64,000 bases of DNA from Pirellulales bacterium (GTDB lineage Bacteria > Planctomycetota > Planctomycetia > Pirellulales > S012-138), in assembly GCA_028066245.1 (NCBI GenBank), contig JALCBR010000004.1:1-64000 (forward strand), read 5' to 3'. The translations under genes were made by a program, and so were the position numbers. Below the pieces are notes generated by a model, which saw only the letters and a list, made by a program, of their open reading frames with translations, made no database searches and was not told the DNA's origin. Of the stretch, positions 21,213 through 30,008 are shown in pieces. Each line of letters starts with the position of its first letter. The stretch's first letter is position 1.

Positions 21213-21361
21213 CGGAACAGCAATCAAAGAAACGCTCTAAACCTAAAAGAACATTCTGACTGATTCCAGCAGCCACTTGTATCGAATGTGCAAGTAATCC
21301 GGCAAACCAAGCTCTCCAGGTGAAGCCGGCGAATAGCGATAATACAACCTAGATTTTGAGT

Positions 21362-22549
21362 ATGAGATTTACTCAACTGAATTCGCTTTCCGAGTTGCGA
21401 GAGAACTCCCAGCGGTGGGACGATCTTTGGTGGCGAAGTAACGTGACGACGCCCACCGTTCGAGCCGAGTTGTTGGCCCAATGGGTTGAACATTTCACGG
21501 CTTCCCGACAGTTCATTGTGCTGGCGGTCGAAGACCAAGGTGACTTTGTTGCGGCGTTGCCGCTTGCTAGCGGTGCGCGAGTGTTGGGGAGTCTGCCGTG
21601 CGGGCAAGTGCCCAGGAATTGCTGGGCCGATTGTGGTGAGTTCTTGCTCGATCCAGGTGCCGAGGTCAAGGCGGTATTCGATCGGCTAGTTGACGGTTTG
21701 AAAAAACTACCCTGGGGGGTCATCTGCGCCGACGGAATCGACGTGCAATCTTCTCAATGGAAACCATTGCTCGATCGCTTGCAGTCCGAAGGGCTTCCAA
21801 CATACACACGGCCCTGGTGGCACGTCGGGCTGATTGACATCGGCAGTGACTGGGAACAGTACGAGCGCTCCCTATCGGGGAACCATCGGCGCTCGATACA
21901 CAAAGCCCTACGCCGACTCGGAGCGGAAAAACGTGTCGAACTGAAAAGATGTAACCACCTTTCTCGGCAGGATGTTGACAAATTGCTACGCCGGTTTTGC
22001 GAAATCGAAAACGAAAGCTGGAAAGGCGAAGCGGGCTCGTCTATTCAAAAGTCGCCTGGCATGTTTGAATTCTATCGACGACAGGCTGAACAACTCGCGG
22101 ATTGGGGCCAGGTGGAATTCCAGTTCCTTGAGCACGATGATCGATTGTTGGCTGCGGAATACGGATTCGCCGCCAAAGGTGTCTATTTCTCCAACAAAAT
22201 CGCTTATGCGCCGCGTTATGCGAATGTTGGTCCCGGCAAACTGCTCCGTTACCACCAGTTGAAGCAGTATTTTGAACAAGACGATTACCATGTGCTCGAT
22301 ACATTGGGAATTCTCAGTGACTCGAACGCCAAATGGGCAACGCGGTCGTACACGTCAAGCGGGCTCTTGATGAGCACGGGTTCAGTTTTGGGAAACACGG
22401 TGGTATGTAGCTATAAGCGTGTTTTGCCTATCGTGAAGAAACTGGTGGGAAGATCAACTGGGGCGCTGCCTTCCCCAAACCTGGGTGCGGCCCGATACAT
22501 GACAACAAATCCCGTGCACGAAAAAGCCGTTGAACCACATCCAGCGTGA
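21362..22549 (+). CDS. GNAT/FemAB-like acyltransferase (BioF2-like)
   Basis: 395 aa. The middle and C-terminal part resembles the CelD/BioF2-like GNAT fold of two GNAT-like halves: YERSLSGNHRRSIHKALRRL, ENESWKGEAGSSI, FEFYRRQAEQLADWGQVEFQFLEHDDRLLAAEYGF and YANVGPGKLLRYHQLKQYF. Such proteins acylate polysaccharides, lipids or peptides, and are often found in exopolysaccharide loci, but no such genes adjoin. A TTG six nt upstream of the ATG at 21362 is a possible start. Substrate unknown. Confidence 0.82.
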   Translation: MRFTQLNSLSELRENSQRWDDLWWRSNVTTPTVRAELLAQWVEHFTASRQFIVLAVEDQGDFVAALPLASGARVLGSLPCGQVPRNCWADCGEFLLDPGAEVKAVFDRLVDGLKKLPWGVICADGIDVQSSQWKPLLDRLQSEGLPTYTRPWWHVGLIDIGSDWEQYERSLSGNHRRSIHKALRRLGAEKRVELKRCNHLSRQDVDKLLRRFCEIENESWKGEAGSSIQKSPGMFEFYRRQAEQLADWGQVEFQFLEHDDRLLAAEYGFAAKGVYFSNKIAYAPRYANVGPGKLLRYHQLKQYFEQDDYHVLDTLGILSDSNAKWATRSYTSSGLLMSTGSVLGNTVVCSYKRVLPIVKKLVGRSTGALPSPNLGAARYMTTNPVHEKAVEPHPA

Positions 22550-22741: not shown

Positions 22742-23929
22742 TCAGAATCGGAACGACGTAGAAATCGAGAGCGTGTTGTCGAAGGCGCGGTCGAGGGCTT
22801 CTTCGTCGATCGCCAGACTCCGGCCAAAGGCGTACCCGATTTCAATTCCACCAGCAATTCCGCGAATGGATCGTCGTTCGACTCCCAATGACAACTGGAA
22901 ATGAGAGTATCGCAGCGGGCGTGTGATTCCATCCGGTCTCTCAATGTACCACGTGTTGCCGCCTGGCCCACCGCCAAGGTAACTCCACCACTGACTATCG
23001 CCGGTGTCTGTCATTCGATACGAGACGCGCGGGTTTGGCAGCATAATGTTGAAGTGTAAGTCGTCGCGCGGTTTCCATTCCAGGCCGGCCATCGGCATCA
23101 CCGGGAATGGTGCTTGGCTGCCCATGTAGCCGGCACCGACCATCATCTGCAAGGTGTCCGTCCAATGGATGCGTCCCATGGCCATCAACATCAACTGAAC
23201 TTCGTCGGCTTCGACGCGGCTTGTGTCAACCAGCGTGTTGGCTCCGCCCATCAACATGAACGTTACTCGATCTGAAATGCGACGTTGCCCAATCGCCTTC
23301 AAGCCAAGTTGCAGACCTTGCGTGCTGATTTCTCCCGACATGCCGACGTTTGTTTGAAGCATCACTACCGAGTCGTCACCAAACCTGACCGGCATACCGA
23401 GTCCCAGTGAGAGTTGATACAACTCGCCTGGCAAAGCAAGATCGGTAGGCGAGTCGAGCATAGAGATGCCGGCGCCCACATTAACATTCATCGGCGCTAT
23501 GAAAATCGGCGGGATCATTGAGCCAGCTTGCGCGGAAACTTCCTGCATTCCGAAACCATCAGTGTCACTGTCGGCCAACCACTGATAGCGAATACCAGAG
23601 CCACGCCCGCCCATTCCCAATCCCCTCCCGCTCATCATGCCATCGTTACCACCGAGCCCTTGCATGCCGCGTTGGGTCGGGACGGTGCTGGCATTCCAGG
23701 AATTGTTGTCGGCTGGAATCGCTAAGGGGTCATACAACGGTTCAGCGTTGTACTCGTCAGCTTTGAACCAGACATCGTCGTATGTCGCAGCAACAGGCGG
23801 TAAACGAAGTGGGGCAGTGGCTGACTGGGCGCGCGCTACATCAGAGCAACTCACGACGCTTAGTCCGAAAAGGACAAGGGTCGCCAGCGAAGATAATTGT
23901 CGTGACTGTGGTCGAACAAGCGTTTGCAC
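22742..23929 (-). CDS. Predicted outer-membrane beta-barrel protein, DUF6268-like
   Basis: 395 aa. A signal peptide (hydrophobic LATLVLFGLSVVS, cleavage near ARAQ) precedes a Gly/Met-rich region (GLGGNDGMMSGRGLGMGGRG), then alternating beta-strand patterns (VNVGAGISML, YQLSLGLGMPVRFG, FNIMLPNPRVSYRMT, LGVERRSIRGIAGGIEIGYAFGRSL). It ends in SISTSFRF with a terminal Phe, as outer-membrane barrels do for BAM recognition. The start is GTG at 23929 with GGAGG 11 nt before. Family assignment to DUF6268 is from memory of its pattern. Probably an outer-membrane protein of unknown role. Confidence 0.78.
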   Translation of the reverse strand: MQTLVRPQSRQLSSLATLVLFGLSVVSCSDVARAQSATAPLRLPPVAATYDDVWFKADEYNAEPLYDPLAIPADNNSWNASTVPTQRGMQGLGGNDGMMSGRGLGMGGRGSGIRYQWLADSDTDGFGMQEVSAQAGSMIPPIFIAPMNVNVGAGISMLDSPTDLALPGELYQLSLGLGMPVRFGDDSVVMLQTNVGMSGEISTQGLQLGLKAIGQRRISDRVTFMLMGGANTLVDTSRVEADEVQLMLMAMGRIHWTDTLQMMVGAGYMGSQAPFPVMPMAGLEWKPRDDLHFNIMLPNPRVSYRMTDTGDSQWWSYLGGGPGGNTWYIERPDGITRPLRYSHFQLSLGVERRSIRGIAGGIEIGYAFGRSLAIDEEALDRAFDNTLSISTSFRF

Positions 23930-24440: not shown

Positions 24441-25139
24441 TTGGACCAAATTCAACAGGCCTTTGATAAGCTTCGGGATTCCGTTGCACTCGGCGATACT
24501 ACGCCGATTTTGTCTTTGACCGTATATCTATTCACGGCAGGCGCGTTGGCGTTGATCGTTCGACTCCTATACCGCAAATGCAGTGGCTCACCATCCGACA
24601 CTGAATCGCTGTCACGCGTTTTTCCGCTGCTTGCGATAGTTACGACCGGCGTTATTGCCGTCGTCAAATCGTCCTTAGCCTTATCGCTCGGGCTTGTCGG
24701 CGCGTTATCGATCGTGCGATTTCGTGCAGCGATCAAAGACCCGGAGGAGCTAGTTTACCTATTCCTGTGCATCGCGATTGGCTTAGCCCTTGGCGCTGAG
24801 CAGCCTTTGCTGGCGATCACATTTGTCGCCGTTGCAACAGTTTTTATCGTAGGCATGCGACTTACAAGCGGAGGCATGCGAAGACAACGACTCATGCTCA
24901 CTATCACGGGCGAAGCAGCGCAGTGCTTTCCTGAAGACGGATCGAGCATCAACTCGGCGGTTGAGTCCGTCGTGGGCAAATATTCACTGCAAAGATTTGA
25001 TGTTGAAAATGGGAGGGCGCAAATCCGGCTCGTTCTTGGCGAAATGAACGCCAAGAAATCTGCAAATCTCATTGCAAAGCTGCAAAACACCTTGCCGGAG
25101 TGCGATGTGTCTTACGTTAACCTGAACTCATCCATTTAG
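24441..25139 (+). CDS. DUF4956 family membrane protein
   Basis: 232 aa. About four membrane segments (LTVYLFTAGALALIVRLLY, VFPLLAIVTTGVIAVVK, LVYLFLCIAIGLALGA, LLAITFVAVATVFIVGM) and the family signature SLALSLGLVGALSIVRFR-AAIKDPEEL between them. A soluble C-terminal domain (ferredoxin-like by pattern) follows. DUF4956 proteins commonly sit beside VTC-domain proteins, as here (13 nt to the next gene). The TTG start at 24441 is decided by GGAG five nt upstream. Function unknown; the pairing suggests a membrane partner in polyphosphate or phosphate-polymer handling. Confidence 0.9.
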   Translation: MDQIQQAFDKLRDSVALGDTTPILSLTVYLFTAGALALIVRLLYRKCSGSPSDTESLSRVFPLLAIVTTGVIAVVKSSLALSLGLVGALSIVRFRAAIKDPEELVYLFLCIAIGLALGAEQPLLAITFVAVATVFIVGMRLTSGGMRRQRLMLTITGEAAQCFPEDGSSINSAVESVVGKYSLQRFDVENGRAQIRLVLGEMNAKKSANLIAKLQNTLPECDVSYVNLNSSI

Positions 25140-25152
25140 TTGGCGGAATTGC

Positions 25153-25914
25153 GTGGTTGCCAGTCTTATCAACTCGGAATTAGCTGCAAGATTCTCACTC
25201 GTGGATACGGGCGAAACCCGTACGGATCTTGCCCGCCGCCGCGAGGTCAAATATGCGCTTCCGCAGATGGATATAGGAAAACTACGGCGTCTGCTTGAAG
25301 TCAATTGCCAGCGATTGATTCACAGCGGTCAGGTTTCAGTCGTCCGTAGCATCTACTTTGATGATTCCCGGCTGTCTGCCTGTCGCGCCAATCTTGATGG
25401 ACTGGGGCTGCGGCGCAAGCTGCGAATTCGCTGGTATGATACACCAATGCCAGGAACAAAATTCTTTGCTGAAATTAAGTGGCGCGACAATCGCGCGACC
25501 GGTAAACACCGCATGCAAATGTGTTCGGACAAGCCATTAGCGGAACTCTCTTATGAGGAAATCCGTCGAGGCTTAGTGGATTCGATTCCCGAGTACTTGG
25601 CCGCTGACGCGGCGCGGTATCACGAGCCCGTCGTTGTTGTCGAATACAAGCGCGAACATTTTGCAAGCAGTGATGGACTTCGCATCACACTGGATTACGA
25701 CCTGAGATTCTACGACCAGTTTGCGAAAAGGATGATCTCGTTGACCTTCCCGAAACCACTCGAGGGTTTCATTGTGCTTGAGGGCAAGACGCCACTGGGC
25801 CGTGAATCCGAACTACGCCAGTGGTTTCACCCTTTGACGCCTAGGGCAACTCGGTGTTCAAAATACGTTTATGGTTGCCGCGAGATCGGCATCATTGGCT
25901 CGCATGAGATCTGA
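25153..25914 (+). CDS. VTC domain protein (polyphosphate polymerase-like)
   Basis: 253 aa, one VTC tunnel domain. Motifs: RREVKYALP, VVRSIYFDDS, RRKLRIRWYD, KFFAEIKWRDN, VVVVEYKREHF, LRITLDYDLRFYD, FIVLEGKT and CSKYVYG. The ring of basic residues and the Glu in the EIK and LEGKT strands match the yeast Vtc4-type active site, which makes polyphosphate from ATP, and related bacterial proteins. No transmembrane segment; it is probably anchored by the DUF4956 partner. The start is GTG at 25153. It is 24 nt before the next gene, so it is in one operon with its neighbours. Confidence 0.88.
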   Translation: MVASLINSELAARFSLVDTGETRTDLARRREVKYALPQMDIGKLRRLLEVNCQRLIHSGQVSVVRSIYFDDSRLSACRANLDGLGLRRKLRIRWYDTPMPGTKFFAEIKWRDNRATGKHRMQMCSDKPLAELSYEEIRRGLVDSIPEYLAADAARYHEPVVVVEYKREHFASSDGLRITLDYDLRFYDQFAKRMISLTFPKPLEGFIVLEGKTPLGRESELRQWFHPLTPRATRCSKYVYGCREIGIIGSHEI

Positions 25915-25938
25915 GTTTGTAACGAAGAGGAGTTCGAT

Positions 25939-28305
25939 ATGCGTCAAGTTTCTGCCGCGTTGTTTGGCCTAACGATGTTCGTAGCGCTGATCGTCAGCGC
26001 ATCGATGGTCCAATCGCACACAAATAGCGCCAATTTACTGGACGCAGCGTCCGACTTGAGTTCGTTGGATGACCTTGACGAACCTTCGCAACAACGAGGA
26101 GGGCAACAACGAGGAGGGCAACAACGAGGAGGGCAACAACGAGGAGGGCAACAACGAGGATTTGGTGGCCAGCGCGGCCGCGGGCGTGGTGGCTTTGCTC
26201 CGCCTCCCCCTCCCCTCGTAGCTGCGTTGGACTCTGACAAAGACGGCGAGATCTCCGCGGAAGAACTAAAGAACGCATCCGAGGCCTTAGCGACACTTGA
26301 CAAGAACAAGGATGGTGAACTTGATGATACTGAACTTGCGGCAGAAGCCACTTTCGGCGGATTCGGCCGGGGTGGCTTCGGCGGGTTTGGGGGCTTTGGT
26401 GGTGGCGGTCGAAACACCGTTCGGATTTCTCCGGAAGAACTCGAATTTTCCGACGGCGCGGCGATGATCGCCGACCATGCGGCGTTTCAGGACCTCTCGT
26501 ATAAAGGCGAGGAGGTCTTGATCGATACGTTCTTGACTGACCTCGAATTCCTCAAGTTCACGATCGATGCCGCCTCTTCGGACGAGCCCCAGTTATATTT
26601 CATCAACACCAACACGCATCGCGCGCATATGATGTTTGGCAATGTTGCTGGACTTTCGATGGGGGGAGATCAAATGAAAGGTGTGCTCGTCTATCGCCCA
26701 ATGCTTGTCTCGCCCAGCGGTAATCCTGGTTTGTACACCTTTGAGTTTGAGCCCTTTGACGCATACTCTTTCGAGATGATCAAGATATGCCAAGACTTAC
26801 TTGTTGACAAAGCTCCGTTTCTCGGTGGGAACATTGGCTACTATCCTCGCGGTGGAGGAGCTCTTGCTCAAGTCGAGAATGACAAAGACAAATATGATGG
26901 CGCAGACGTTGTGGTTTATCGTGATGAAGACCTGACAAACGCGGACGTCGGATATCTACCCTTAAACCCTGGGAAATCATTTGGGCGGCTTCGCCTGATG
27001 GAGATTGATGAAATGCCAGGACCGCGCGATATCGTTCTCTATGAGACTTTGCCTAATGAACTGTCCAGAGTAGCAGGCATTATCACCTCCGTTCGCCAAA
27101 CGCCCCTTTCGCACGTCAATCTCCGCGCCATTCAAGACAAGGTACCGAACGCCTTTGTAGCCAATGCCGTGGAAAACGAGAGAATTCGCGCGCTTATCGG
27201 GAAGAACGTGGCCTATGGTGTAACTTCGGACGGCTTTGAAATCCGCGAGGCATCTACTGACGAAGTCGATGCGCACTTCGCCAATCTGCGACCAAAGCTG
27301 CCCCAGGTTCCGCAACGCGATCTGCAAAACAAAGATATCCTCCCACTTGAGCAGCTGAAATTTGAGAGTTCATCCAGCGTTGGCGTTAAAGCCGCCAATC
27401 TTGCAACCATGCATACTTTCGGATTCCCCAAAGGTACAGTGCCTGACGGATACGCCATACCATTCTATTACTACGATGAATTCATGAAGCACAACGGCTT
27501 CTACTCATTCATCGACGAGCTCCTGCGGAATCCAGAATTTCAAAAAGATCAAGATGCGCGCAAGGAGCAACTCAAAACAGTCCGCTCGCTCATCAAGAAA
27601 GGAAAGATGCCCGAATGGATGATGTCCGATTTGGCCGCGCTGCACCAATCCTTTCCGGCAGGAACATCAATTCGTTGTCGGTCGAGCACGAATAATGAGG
27701 ATCTACCGGGCTATAGCGGAGCTGGGCTCTATGATTCGTATACTCATCATCCGGACGAGGGCCATTTCTCAAAGTCCGTCAAACAAGTATTTGCCAGTTT
27801 GTGGAATCTGCGGGCCTTTGAAGAGCGTGAATTCTATCGTGTCGATCATTTTTCTTCAGCTATGGGGGTACTCGTCCATAGGAACTTCCGTGGCGAGATC
27901 GCCAATGGTGTCGCCGTGACGGAGGACATCTTTTACCAAACTCAAGGCAATTACTACGTCAACACTCAGGTTGGTGAAGACTTGGTGACGAACCCAGAAG
28001 AAGAATCTGTGCCGGAAGAAGCGTTGGTGGATTGGTGGGACAAGGAAGATTACCAAATCATGCGGGCCTCCAATCGGAGCGGGCAGGGAGAGCAACTACT
28101 TTCAAAATCTCATGTCCAACAGCTCTCGGATCATTTGGCGATGATCCACGCGCGCTTTGCCAGGCTTTATGGCAAGACTCTAGACGACCCACGGTTCGCG
28201 ATGGAGATTGAGTTCAAAGTCACCAAGGAGGGCCAATTGGCCATAAAGCAAGCTCGCCCATGGGTCTTTACGGAAGCCAACTCAGTACAAGAGGAGCAAC
28301 GATAA
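25939..28305 (+). CDS. Secreted EF-hand protein with PEP-synthase-like domains
   Basis: 788 aa. A signal peptide (about 1-26) is followed by a run of QQRGG repeats (about 51-74), two EF-hand loops (DSDKDGEISAEE, DKNKDGELDDTE), a Gly/Phe-rich link, and a long region. Next comes a phosphohistidine-like strand RQTPLSHVNLRA with His392, and finally an ATP-grasp domain like the N-terminus of PPDK/PEP synthase (SIRCRSSTNNEDLPGYSGAG, ASLWNLRAFEEREFYR, GVLVHRNF, LAIKQARPW). The swivel His precedes the ATP-grasp domain, the reverse of PEP synthase. A strong GAGGAG precedes the ATG. Export of such a phosphotransfer module is unusual; no substrate can be named. It probably works with the VTC and DUF4956 proteins. 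Confidence 0.85.
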   Translation: MRQVSAALFGLTMFVALIVSASMVQSHTNSANLLDAASDLSSLDDLDEPSQQRGGQQRGGQQRGGQQRGGQQRGFGGQRGRGRGGFAPPPPPLVAALDSDKDGEISAEELKNASEALATLDKNKDGELDDTELAAEATFGGFGRGGFGGFGGFGGGGRNTVRISPEELEFSDGAAMIADHAAFQDLSYKGEEVLIDTFLTDLEFLKFTIDAASSDEPQLYFINTNTHRAHMMFGNVAGLSMGGDQMKGVLVYRPMLVSPSGNPGLYTFEFEPFDAYSFEMIKICQDLLVDKAPFLGGNIGYYPRGGGALAQVENDKDKYDGADVVVYRDEDLTNADVGYLPLNPGKSFGRLRLMEIDEMPGPRDIVLYETLPNELSRVAGIITSVRQTPLSHVNLRAIQDKVPNAFVANAVENERIRALIGKNVAYGVTSDGFEIREASTDEVDAHFANLRPKLPQVPQRDLQNKDILPLEQLKFESSSSVGVKAANLATMHTFGFPKGTVPDGYAIPFYYYDEFMKHNGFYSFIDELLRNPEFQKDQDARKEQLKTVRSLIKKGKMPEWMMSDLAALHQSFPAGTSIRCRSSTNNEDLPGYSGAGLYDSYTHHPDEGHFSKSVKQVFASLWNLRAFEEREFYRVDHFSSAMGVLVHRNFRGEIANGVAVTEDIFYQTQGNYYVNTQVGEDLVTNPEEESVPEEALVDWWDKEDYQIMRASNRSGQGEQLLSKSHVQQLSDHLAMIHARFARLYGKTLDDPRFAMEIEFKVTKEGQLAIKQARPWVFTEANSVQEEQR
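26089..26160 (+). repeat. In-frame 15-bp tandem repeat (QQRGG)
   Basis: CAACAACGAGGAGGG is repeated four times and followed by a 12-bp partial unit, with no base changes between units. It encodes QQRGG repeats in the secreted EF-hand protein. The exact identity of the units points to recent expansion by slippage, so copy number may vary between strains. Confidence 0.95.
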
Positions 28306-28703
28306 TGTGCAAGGTCATTTTAACTATCGGGTTGGCCTGCACGCTGGTCGTGACGGCTGATGGTCAACGACAAGGGAGGGGGCAACGTGGCCAACAGAAC
28401 CGCGGCGGGCCCGGCCGTGGTTTTGGTCAAATGCCTGAATCAAAACTCATGGTAGCACTTGATGCCGACAAGGACGGCAAGATCTCGGCCAAAGAAATCG
28501 AAAAAGCAGTTGAGGCTCTACAAACCATTGACGCGGACAAAAACGGGAAACTTTCGTCCGAAGAGATAGGTTGGCCGCCGACGGGAGGAACAAGGATCCA
28601 GGGTAGCTTTGGAGGATTCGGGGGATTCTTCGGCGGCTCGCAACAGCAAGGACGTCCACGGCGTCCTGATCCTGATGCGACCAGTCCAACCTCTGATGGG
28701 TAA
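28305..28703 (+). CDS. Small secreted EF-hand protein
   Basis: 132 aa. Signal peptide MCKVILTIGLACTLVVTADG, an Arg/Gly/Gln-rich stretch (RQGRGQRGQQNRGGPGRG), then two EF-hand loops DADKDGKISAKE and DADKNGKLSSEE, and a Gly/Phe- and Pro-rich tail. The order echoes the N-terminal part of the preceding protein, from which it may have been duplicated. Its ATG at 28305 overlaps the previous stop by one base (TAATG), which implies translational coupling. It probably binds calcium outside the cytoplasm. Confidence 0.88.
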   Translation: MCKVILTIGLACTLVVTADGQRQGRGQRGQQNRGGPGRGFGQMPESKLMVALDADKDGKISAKEIEKAVEALQTIDADKNGKLSSEEIGWPPTGGTRIQGSFGGFGGFFGGSQQQGRPRRPDPDATSPTSDG

Positions 28704-28860: not shown

Positions 28861-29635
28861 TGGTCCAGGTTGAATGCAAGTTTTCAAGTTTCTCGTTCAT
28901 CGGCTGCAAAGGTGAGCGGAGCGAACTTTTGCAGCCAATGAACGAGCTGCAAACTCCTCAGGAGTGGCATGGCCCAAGGCACTGTGTGGACGATGCCGGT
29001 TGTAATCCAGCCTCCATTCTTCAAGTTTCTCTTGGGCGTCTTCGAGGTCAATGAACCAGTGTTCATTCAAGCACTCCTGACGCACGCGTCCGTTGAATGA
29101 CTCGATGTAGGCGTTGTCGGTCGGCTTTCCCGGCCGGCGGTAGCCATAGTGGACGCGGCTGGCCGCCAAATCCCGAAGGCGAATGCGAAGGTCAGCCCGT
29201 TCATCACGCACGCTTTCATAACGGTGACTGGAACGCGGAAACTTCATCGCCGAACACGCGCGACGCTCACTGACGTCGTAGCGTTGCTGAAGCTTCTTCA
29301 CCGTTTGGAACGGACTTTAGACCTCGACAGCGTCCTGCAACATCCGCTTGTCCAAGCTGAGATCTGCCACCAACTGCTTGAGCTTCTTGTTCTTCTCCTC
29401 AAGCTGCTTGAGTCGGCAAACTTCAGCCACGCCTAAGCCCGCGTACTTCTTGCGCCAACGTAGAACGTCGGCTCCGAAACTCCCCTCTTGCGAATGATTT
29501 CCGACACGGCCGTGCTGGATTCCGCTTGCCGCAGCGCAAAGGCGATCTGGTCTTCCGTGTAACGCTTTTTCTTCATGGATTTGATCCTCCTCGAAAATGC
29601 AAGGTAACGAATTTCCTTGCATTCCGCCTGGACCA
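28861..29635 (-). mobile_element. IS3-family (IS407-like) element, internally deleted
   Basis: Terminal inverted repeats of 20 bp match at 18 positions (28861-28880 and 29616-29635), with TG/CA ends as in IS3 elements. Within lie orfA and orfB remnants on the minus strand. At 775 bp it is well short of the about 1.2-1.3 kb of intact relatives. No clear target duplication was seen. Its right end and leader are nearly the same as those at 21010-21071, so two insertions of one IS type are present. Confidence 0.88.
28897..29576 (-). pseudogene. IS407-type transposase remnant (orfA frameshift, orfB deletion)
   Basis: orfA begins MKKKRYTEDQIAFALRQAES at 29576, shifts frame near SEPTFY and goes on as WRKKYAGLGVAEVCRLKQLE..LVADLSLDKRML. 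orfB begins with KKLQQRYDVSERRACSAM and RIRLRDLAASRVHYGYRR, then jumps directly to GKPTDNAYIESFNGRVRQEC and ends after NRHRPHSALGHATPEEFA. The jump removes most of the rve catalytic core including the first two acidic residues; only the last Glu (IESF) remains. No active transposase can be made. Confidence 0.9.
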
Positions 29636-29651
29636 AGATCCCCACAGCAGG

Positions 29652-30008
29652 TCAATCCGCGGCAACCATGCTGGCCATGCGTCCGCCCATCGATTTGCCG
29701 CCAATGATCAACTTACCTGACTTCGCCGGTCCTGATTTGCGGAGTTGGGCAATGACGTTGAGCCAAGTTTCCGTGAACACCGGCTGCCGGTCTGGAGGCT
29801 TCTTGCGACCAGACTGCCGCTGGGCGTGCATATAAGGGAACTCGAAACGGACAACACGCAACTTTTTTGCAGATAAGCCACCGGCCATGAATTCCATAAA
29901 TGGTGAATCCATCGGCGCGCCGGCTCCGTGTGCCAGCACAACCGTCGCCAGCGGGCTTCGCTTCGGCCCAACGATCAACAGCTCAACGTTTTTTCCGATT
30001 GCCTTCAA
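29652..30008 (-). pseudogene. KANL3/Tex30-like alpha/beta hydrolase, C-terminus lost
   Basis: The remaining reading frame has VELLIVG, TVVLAHGAGAPMDSPFM, RVVRFEFPYMHAQR, KKPPDRQPVF and the nucleophile elbow LIIGGKSMGGRMASMVAAD, then stops a few bases from the end of the IS at 29635. Family members continue for about 90 more residues with the acid and His, which are absent here and not found on the other side of the IS. The likely start is a TTG at 30008 overlapping the previous gene's stop. Loss is probably due to IS insertion with deletion. Confidence 0.8.

Follow-up and report, generated by a model that had tools for sequence, protein, structure and literature searches.

Among described systems, the closest to the locus analyzed here are operons in which CotH, a polyphosphate polymerase and DUF4956 are encoded together, as seen beside Gram-positive pel exopolysaccharide clusters (PMC7112168). 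Operons with a tight DUF4956-VTC pair and an exported phosphotransferase, CotH, as third member also occur throughout the Planctomycetota. A second point of comparison is provided by the glucan water dikinases, which carry the dikinase domain at their C-terminus (PMC6805951) and place the beta-phosphate of ATP on a catalytic histidine (PMC7569903). The locus in question is a four-gene block of a planctomycete, a Pirellulales bacterium (GCA_028066245.1; genome of 4.94 Mb, 97.5% complete). It lies within positions 1 to 64,000 of the forward strand of contig JALCBR010000004.1, and these 64,000 nucleotides (nt) are referred to below as the window. As in the CotH operons, DUF4956 is paired with VTC. 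In contrast with them, the third member, here called P3, is a dikinase-type protein with phosphohistidine and ATP-grasp domains and EF-hands, and a fourth gene encodes another EF-hand protein. P3 seems to stand in for CotH as the exported phosphotransferase of such operons, and bears on how DUF4956, VTC and CotH work together. Each domain is known; what is new is the combination, and the repeated finding of an apparent exported dikinase in place of CotH. In the literature searched on DUF4956-VTC with a third member, only the CotH form was found. The four genes are the following:

24441-25139, + strand: gene 1, DUF4956 membrane protein, 232 residues, TTG start (Pfam PF16316, E=6.1e-15)
25153-25914, + strand: gene 2, VTC-type triphosphate tunnel enzyme, polyphosphate-polymerase-like, 253 residues, GTG start (Pfam PF09359, E=1.6e-22)
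25939-28305, + strand: gene 3, P3, 788 residues, ATG start
28305-28703, + strand: gene 4, small secreted EF-hand protein, 132 residues, ATG start (two EF-hands, Pfam E=2.6e-9; hydrophobic N-terminus by hydropathy)

The open reading frames (ORFs) and Pfam matches confirm the block, with its domains and spacing, as it had been described in an initial annotation made from the letters of the window. Genes 1 and 2 are separated by 13 nt and genes 2 and 3 by 24 nt, genes 3 and 4 share one base (TAATG), and a GAGGAG motif is present upstream of genes 3 and 4. A single transcription unit, which the initial annotation had taken as certain, is likely given this spacing. The promoter and terminator scan returned fewer matches than expected by chance, and no Rfam match was found. 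The genome encodes one VTC and one DUF4956.

P3 and CotH at DUF4956-VTC loci

Every ORF of the loci retrieved was searched with VTC, DUF4956 and CotH profiles, which had been derived from confirmed Pfam matches. P3 adjoins both VTC and DUF4956 in 11 distinct loci, including the window, and these present three gene orders:

DUF4956-VTC-P3: the window and K23_9 (L114)
VTC-DUF4956-P3: seven loci of the Acidobacteriota (L132, L133, L143, L145, L148, L150, L155)
P3-VTC-DUF4956: two loci of the same phylum as the window (L066, and L065, which is on the same contig as L160)

Conservation of the four-gene order, for which a survey had been proposed with the initial annotation, is partly borne out: the exact order was not found elsewhere and its first three genes recur in that order only in K23_9, while nine loci hold the same three genes in other orders.

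No CotH gene was found in the examined stretch of any of the 11 loci, and none is present in the window or anywhere else in its genome. CotH is also absent genome-wide in two of the four other P3-operon genomes tested. For comparison, 90 other DUF4956 loci were taken from the phylum, 10 of which came from P3-bearing genomes while 80 were sampled. VTC is present in 74 of the 90, CotH in 64, one or both of them in 87, and P3 in none. These values agree with the earlier description of DUF4956 and VTC as a recurring pair often accompanied by CotH. P3 looks like a substitute for CotH because the 11 loci never have CotH nearby, while 64 of the 90 others have CotH and none has P3. If CotH were equally likely at all loci and the lineages independent, its absence from all four separate P3 lineages would have a chance of about 0.29^4 = 0.007.

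On the P3 tree, the association with VTC and DUF4956 requires at least four changes, three of them forced by well-supported branches, against 10.5 with shuffled labels; this is a quick tree without bootstrap, and the three changes could equal one gain and two losses. The association is thus clustered on the tree, yet not explained by a single inheritance. It recurs at four places of the tree, in both Planctomycetota and Acidobacteriota, which argues against chance. Given that an unrelated exported phosphotransferase is repeatedly found in the CotH slot, what matters there would be phosphate transfer outside the cell, rather than CotH itself.

Both arrangements coexist in genome G318, with P3-VTC-DUF4956 (L065) and DUF4956-CotH-VTC (L164) on contigs C195 and C278, respectively. 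Separately, loci L182-L188 present a high-scoring DUF4956 paired with CotH, with no VTC in the stretch, and apparently represent a second, distinct DUF4956-CotH pair in the Planctomycetota.

Architecture and predicted chemistry of P3

From N- to C-terminus, P3 is composed of the following elements:

25939-26016, + strand: signal peptide, residues ~1-26 (hydrophobic segment 6-24 by hydropathy)
26088-26160, + strand: low-complexity linker of GGQQR units, 4.9 perfect copies of the 15-base repeat GCAACAACGAGGAGG (Tandem Repeats Finder)
26230-26334, + strand: EF-hand pair, loops DSDKDGEISAEE (98-109) and DKNKDGELDDTE (121-132) (Pfam EF-hand, best model 1.4e-6; loop scan)
26431-26943, + strand: N-terminal alpha/beta domain, residues ~165-335 (structure model)
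26956-27258, + strand: phosphohistidine (swivel) domain, residues ~340-440 (sub-threshold GWD1_pHisD, residues 377-442)
27112-27114 (CAC), + strand: His392, predicted phosphate carrier, inside QTPLSHVNLRA
27337-28269, + strand: ATP-grasp (PPDK_N) nucleotide-binding domain, residues ~467-777 (PPDK_N 9.1e-33, residues 479-784)

The initial annotation had proposed an exported protein with EF-hands, a phosphohistidine segment and a PPDK-type ATP-grasp domain, and the signal peptide and conserved residues agree with this: by hydropathy P3 is predicted to be exported rather than cytoplasmic, and its ATP-grasp residues are intact. Among aligned relatives, His392 is invariant in 85/85, as is its surrounding Q387-T388-P389-L390-S391-H392-x-N394-L395. 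The ATP-grasp residues K484, R579, R581, S582, S583, N585, N586, E587, D588, E758, Q771, R773 and P774 are likewise invariant in 85/85. A phmmer alignment pairs K484 with Lys22 and R581 with Arg117 of Rph, both of which mutagenesis showed to be essential for resistance (PMC4844700).

Residues 161-462 were modelled with the help of 45 relatives, at a mean pLDDT (predicted local distance difference test) of 94.5. The best fold match of this model is the Rph kinase over ~110 columns (Foldseek, 111 columns, E=4e-4), which judging by their length probably represent the His domain. The whole-P3 model reaches a pLDDT of 74.9, and its ATP domain is predicted to fold like those of Rph, PEPS and PPDK (Foldseek, E down to 9e-17), as the initial reading of this domain would have it. 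For the N-terminal domain, no convincing relative was found in Pfam, the PDB or the fold search; a PDB profile search with the N-terminal and His region gave a single match at E=1.9, which was rejected.

In 38 of 45 P3 relatives, no Pfam family matches the His domain better than GWD1_pHisD (best E=1.6e-5). P3 fits the water dikinase superfamily, with PPDK_N and its catalytic residues and a swivel-domain His, and its dikinase activity (ATP to AMP, Pi and a phosphorylated acceptor) is a prediction. The His domain precedes the ATP domain in P3 and in all its relatives. In phosphoenolpyruvate (PEP) synthase and PPDK, the ATP domain precedes the His domain. The order had been reported as reversed, which holds only against these two enzymes; it is not odd, given that the plant alpha-glucan water dikinases share it. 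These proteins (GWD1, PWD) also resemble P3 in the LSHxNxRA motif around the His and in the lack of a pyruvate-binding domain, and differ from it in that P3 is bacterial and exported, has its own N-terminal domain and EF-hands, and has no CBM45 or CBM20 match in the Pfam scan. Rph, HpeHI kinase, PEP synthase and PPDK share with P3 the ATP-grasp and swivelling phosphohistidine chemistry. Unlike P3, they work in the cytoplasm and carry other acceptor domains, and their ATP domain either precedes the His domain or sits on a separate chain. What is unusual in P3 is therefore its export, its EF-hands and its new N-terminal domain. Two other explanations were discarded: P3 is not an ordinary PEP synthase, as it has no PEP/pyruvate-binding barrel in the Pfam scan and falls far under all NCBIfam cut-offs, and its domain order is not a fusion artefact, being identical in all relatives.

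The invariant residues also bear on whether P3 is an enzyme at all. ATP is scarce outside the cytoplasm and EF-hands are common in planctomycete secreted proteins, as would suit a degenerate secreted adhesin or scaffold that keeps only the fold. The catalytic His and ATP-binding residues are however invariant in 85/85 over four phyla, which is unexpected without selection for catalysis, and we consider a non-catalytic P3 highly improbable.

A scan of GTDB representatives yielded at least 553 encoded P3 relatives, the best 80 of which were retained and belong to Planctomycetota, Verrucomicrobiota, Candidatus Poribacteria and Acidobacteriota. Similarity of the EF-hands alone was rejected as the source of the close matches after the search was redone without the EF-hand part. 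Matches to P3 in 58 nearby genomes were confined to EF-hand linkers or generic PPDK_N, and viral contigs gave no P3 match. An export-type N-terminus is present in 76 of 87 close relatives by hydropathy, and some of the others are truncated or start downstream. A further 26 distant full-length relatives were found in 297 acidobacterial genomes; inspection of 20 showed a strongly hydrophobic N-terminus in 19, and PLSHxN, by a simple pattern, in most. P3 and its relatives form a widespread and apparently uncharacterised family of predicted exported dikinases. Such proteins could easily pass for PEP synthase-like ones, and their active sites are intact in 85/85 aligned members. No description of water-dikinase chemistry outside the cytoplasm was found in the literature searched.

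Two further observations concern this family. The distant acidobacterial relatives at L260-L279 have no VTC, DUF4956 or CotH nearby. Loci L069-L081 (e.g., L069:6522-12002 and L070:5827-9042) encode proteins of 1000-1900 residues with a P3-like His and ATP-grasp core, which may represent a second exported dikinase family with several copies per genome; the two of them examined bear FG-GAP repeats or a dockerin. Such modules and a P domain, which are carried by larger P3 paralogues, are all typical of exported proteins.

DUF4956, VTC and a possible polyphosphate role

The DUF4956 protein has about four hydrophobic helices (hydropathy peaks at 22-40, 57-75, 80-98 and 123-141) followed by a soluble C-terminal part. 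VTC has no transmembrane segment by hydropathy and is predicted to be cytoplasmic. A single-sequence PDB search with VTC gave no real match. The VTC family profile retrieved yeast Vtc4 with E=1.5e-31, in an alignment spanning the whole catalytic domain; a single-seed profile was too weak for the acidobacterial copies, and a stronger one was used instead. Vtc4 has been inactivated by mutation of R264, R266 and E426 (PMC9911596), and the profile alignment places R91, R93 and E210 of VTC as their counterparts. Among 19 relatives, no variation occurs at K33, K89, R91, K109, K118, R167, R177, E210, K212 or K237. Given that the Vtc4 catalytic residues are kept, VTC is probably an active tunnel enzyme using nucleoside triphosphates (NTPs).

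As in the yeast complex of Vtc4 and Vtc1, a tunnel catalytic domain with matching residues is accompanied by a separate membrane partner. The bacterial VTC of the window differs in having no SPX domain and in its partner, the unrelated DUF4956. The correspondence over the whole Vtc4 catalytic domain, together with the coupling of Vtc4 synthesis to membrane translocation in yeast (PMC9911596), would suit an envelope polyphosphate system, in which VTC makes the polymer, DUF4956 exports it and P3 attaches or mobilises it. Polyphosphate is nonetheless only a putative product of the bacterial VTC, and a channel only a putative role of DUF4956; an ordinary Ppk is encoded on another contig of the genome, and known dikinases transfer single phosphates rather than polymers. 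We regard this explanation as improbable; the presence of Ppk, and the fact that most P3 genes have no VTC beside them, also weaken the initial suggestion of a phosphate polymer as product.

Proposed envelope phosphotransfer and the partners of P3

Canonical 12-residue DxDxDG loops occur as a pair in P3 and as a pair in gene 4 (residues 53-64 and 76-87). EF-hand loops are recognized by sequence in 49 of 87 P3 relatives, and the calcium dependence initially proposed is putative. Ten loci other than the window, in Planctomycetota and Verrucomicrobiota, have a short secreted two-EF-hand gene immediately after P3; all are without VTC, and some come from near-identical strains (L083, L084, L108, L111, L116, L119, L121, L123, L127, L158). 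Only in the window was P3 seen together with VTC-DUF4956 as well as the EF-hand gene. As each also occurs beside P3 without the other, both would be optional partners of P3.

On balance, we lean towards reading the operon as an envelope phosphotransfer system with P3, an exported protein of the water-dikinase type, in the CotH slot. The ATP-grasp domain of P3 would charge His392 on the swivel domain from a nucleotide triphosphate, and the phosphate would then move from the phosphohistidine to an acceptor beyond the inner membrane, for which an exported glycan or a secreted protein is the likeliest candidate. VTC, acting on NTPs in the cytoplasm, and its membrane partner DUF4956 would make a phosphate-rich product or donor and probably pass it across the membrane. 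Calcium may be bound by the EF-hands of P3 and gene 4, which would link the enzyme to its target, or the two proteins with one another, and serve attachment or folding.

Several results weigh against this reading. The phosphate donor is the hardest point, as ATP is scarce where P3 would act, and the acceptor is hypothetical as well. One idea is that VTC-DUF4956 would supply its phosphate-rich product across the membrane. The P3 genes that stand alone suggest, however, that a donor is also available to P3 in the absence of VTC. All GWD1_pHisD matches of the family are below the Pfam gathering score, P3 has no recognizable glycan-binding module, and signal peptides were judged by hydropathy rather than by a trained predictor. 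CotH genes are present elsewhere in the genomes of K23_9 and Poribacteria, hence the replacement is one at the locus and not always in the genome. Finally, 74 of 87 P3 loci have no VTC, DUF4956 or CotH in the stretch, an upper bound given that some stretches are short or cut by contig ends, and no VTC was found in four complete Poribacteria chromosomes carrying P3. The link to VTC is therefore optional, and P3 does not depend on it.

The solitary P3 loci, the VTC-free Poribacteria chromosomes and the ten loci with P3 and an EF-hand gene but no VTC would suit a separate module, in which P3 and the EF-hand gene provide an exported, calcium-dependent kinase of glycans or proteins that merely came to be co-transcribed with DUF4956-VTC and shares no biochemistry with it. 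This is a reasonable competitor, albeit a rather unlikely one: VTC and DUF4956 came to lie beside P3 in at least three separate lineages and in three gene orders, P3 sits in a slot otherwise held by another exported kinase, and chance adjacency within 5 kb amounts to a fraction of a percent per locus. Envelope phosphotransfer with P3 in the CotH slot is thus retained. A broader form of it, in which a family of exported His-phosphorylating dikinases found in at least four phyla drives phosphorylation with nucleotides outside the cytoplasm and replaces CotH in DUF4956-VTC operons, and VTC-DUF4956 feeds a high-energy phosphate donor to whichever exported kinase is present, is speculative and we hold it to be unlikely.

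The surroundings of the operon and a feature of the P3 gene complete the description. The length of the linker repeat likely differs between strains. The following genes flank the operon:

21356-22549, + strand (same strand as the operon): upstream, Acetyltransf_6 (GNAT) protein
22742-23929, - strand: upstream, secreted DUF6268 protein
28897-29655, - strand: directly downstream, insertion sequence transposase (integrase core rve_3, 1.4e-28) with a small ORF upstream of it

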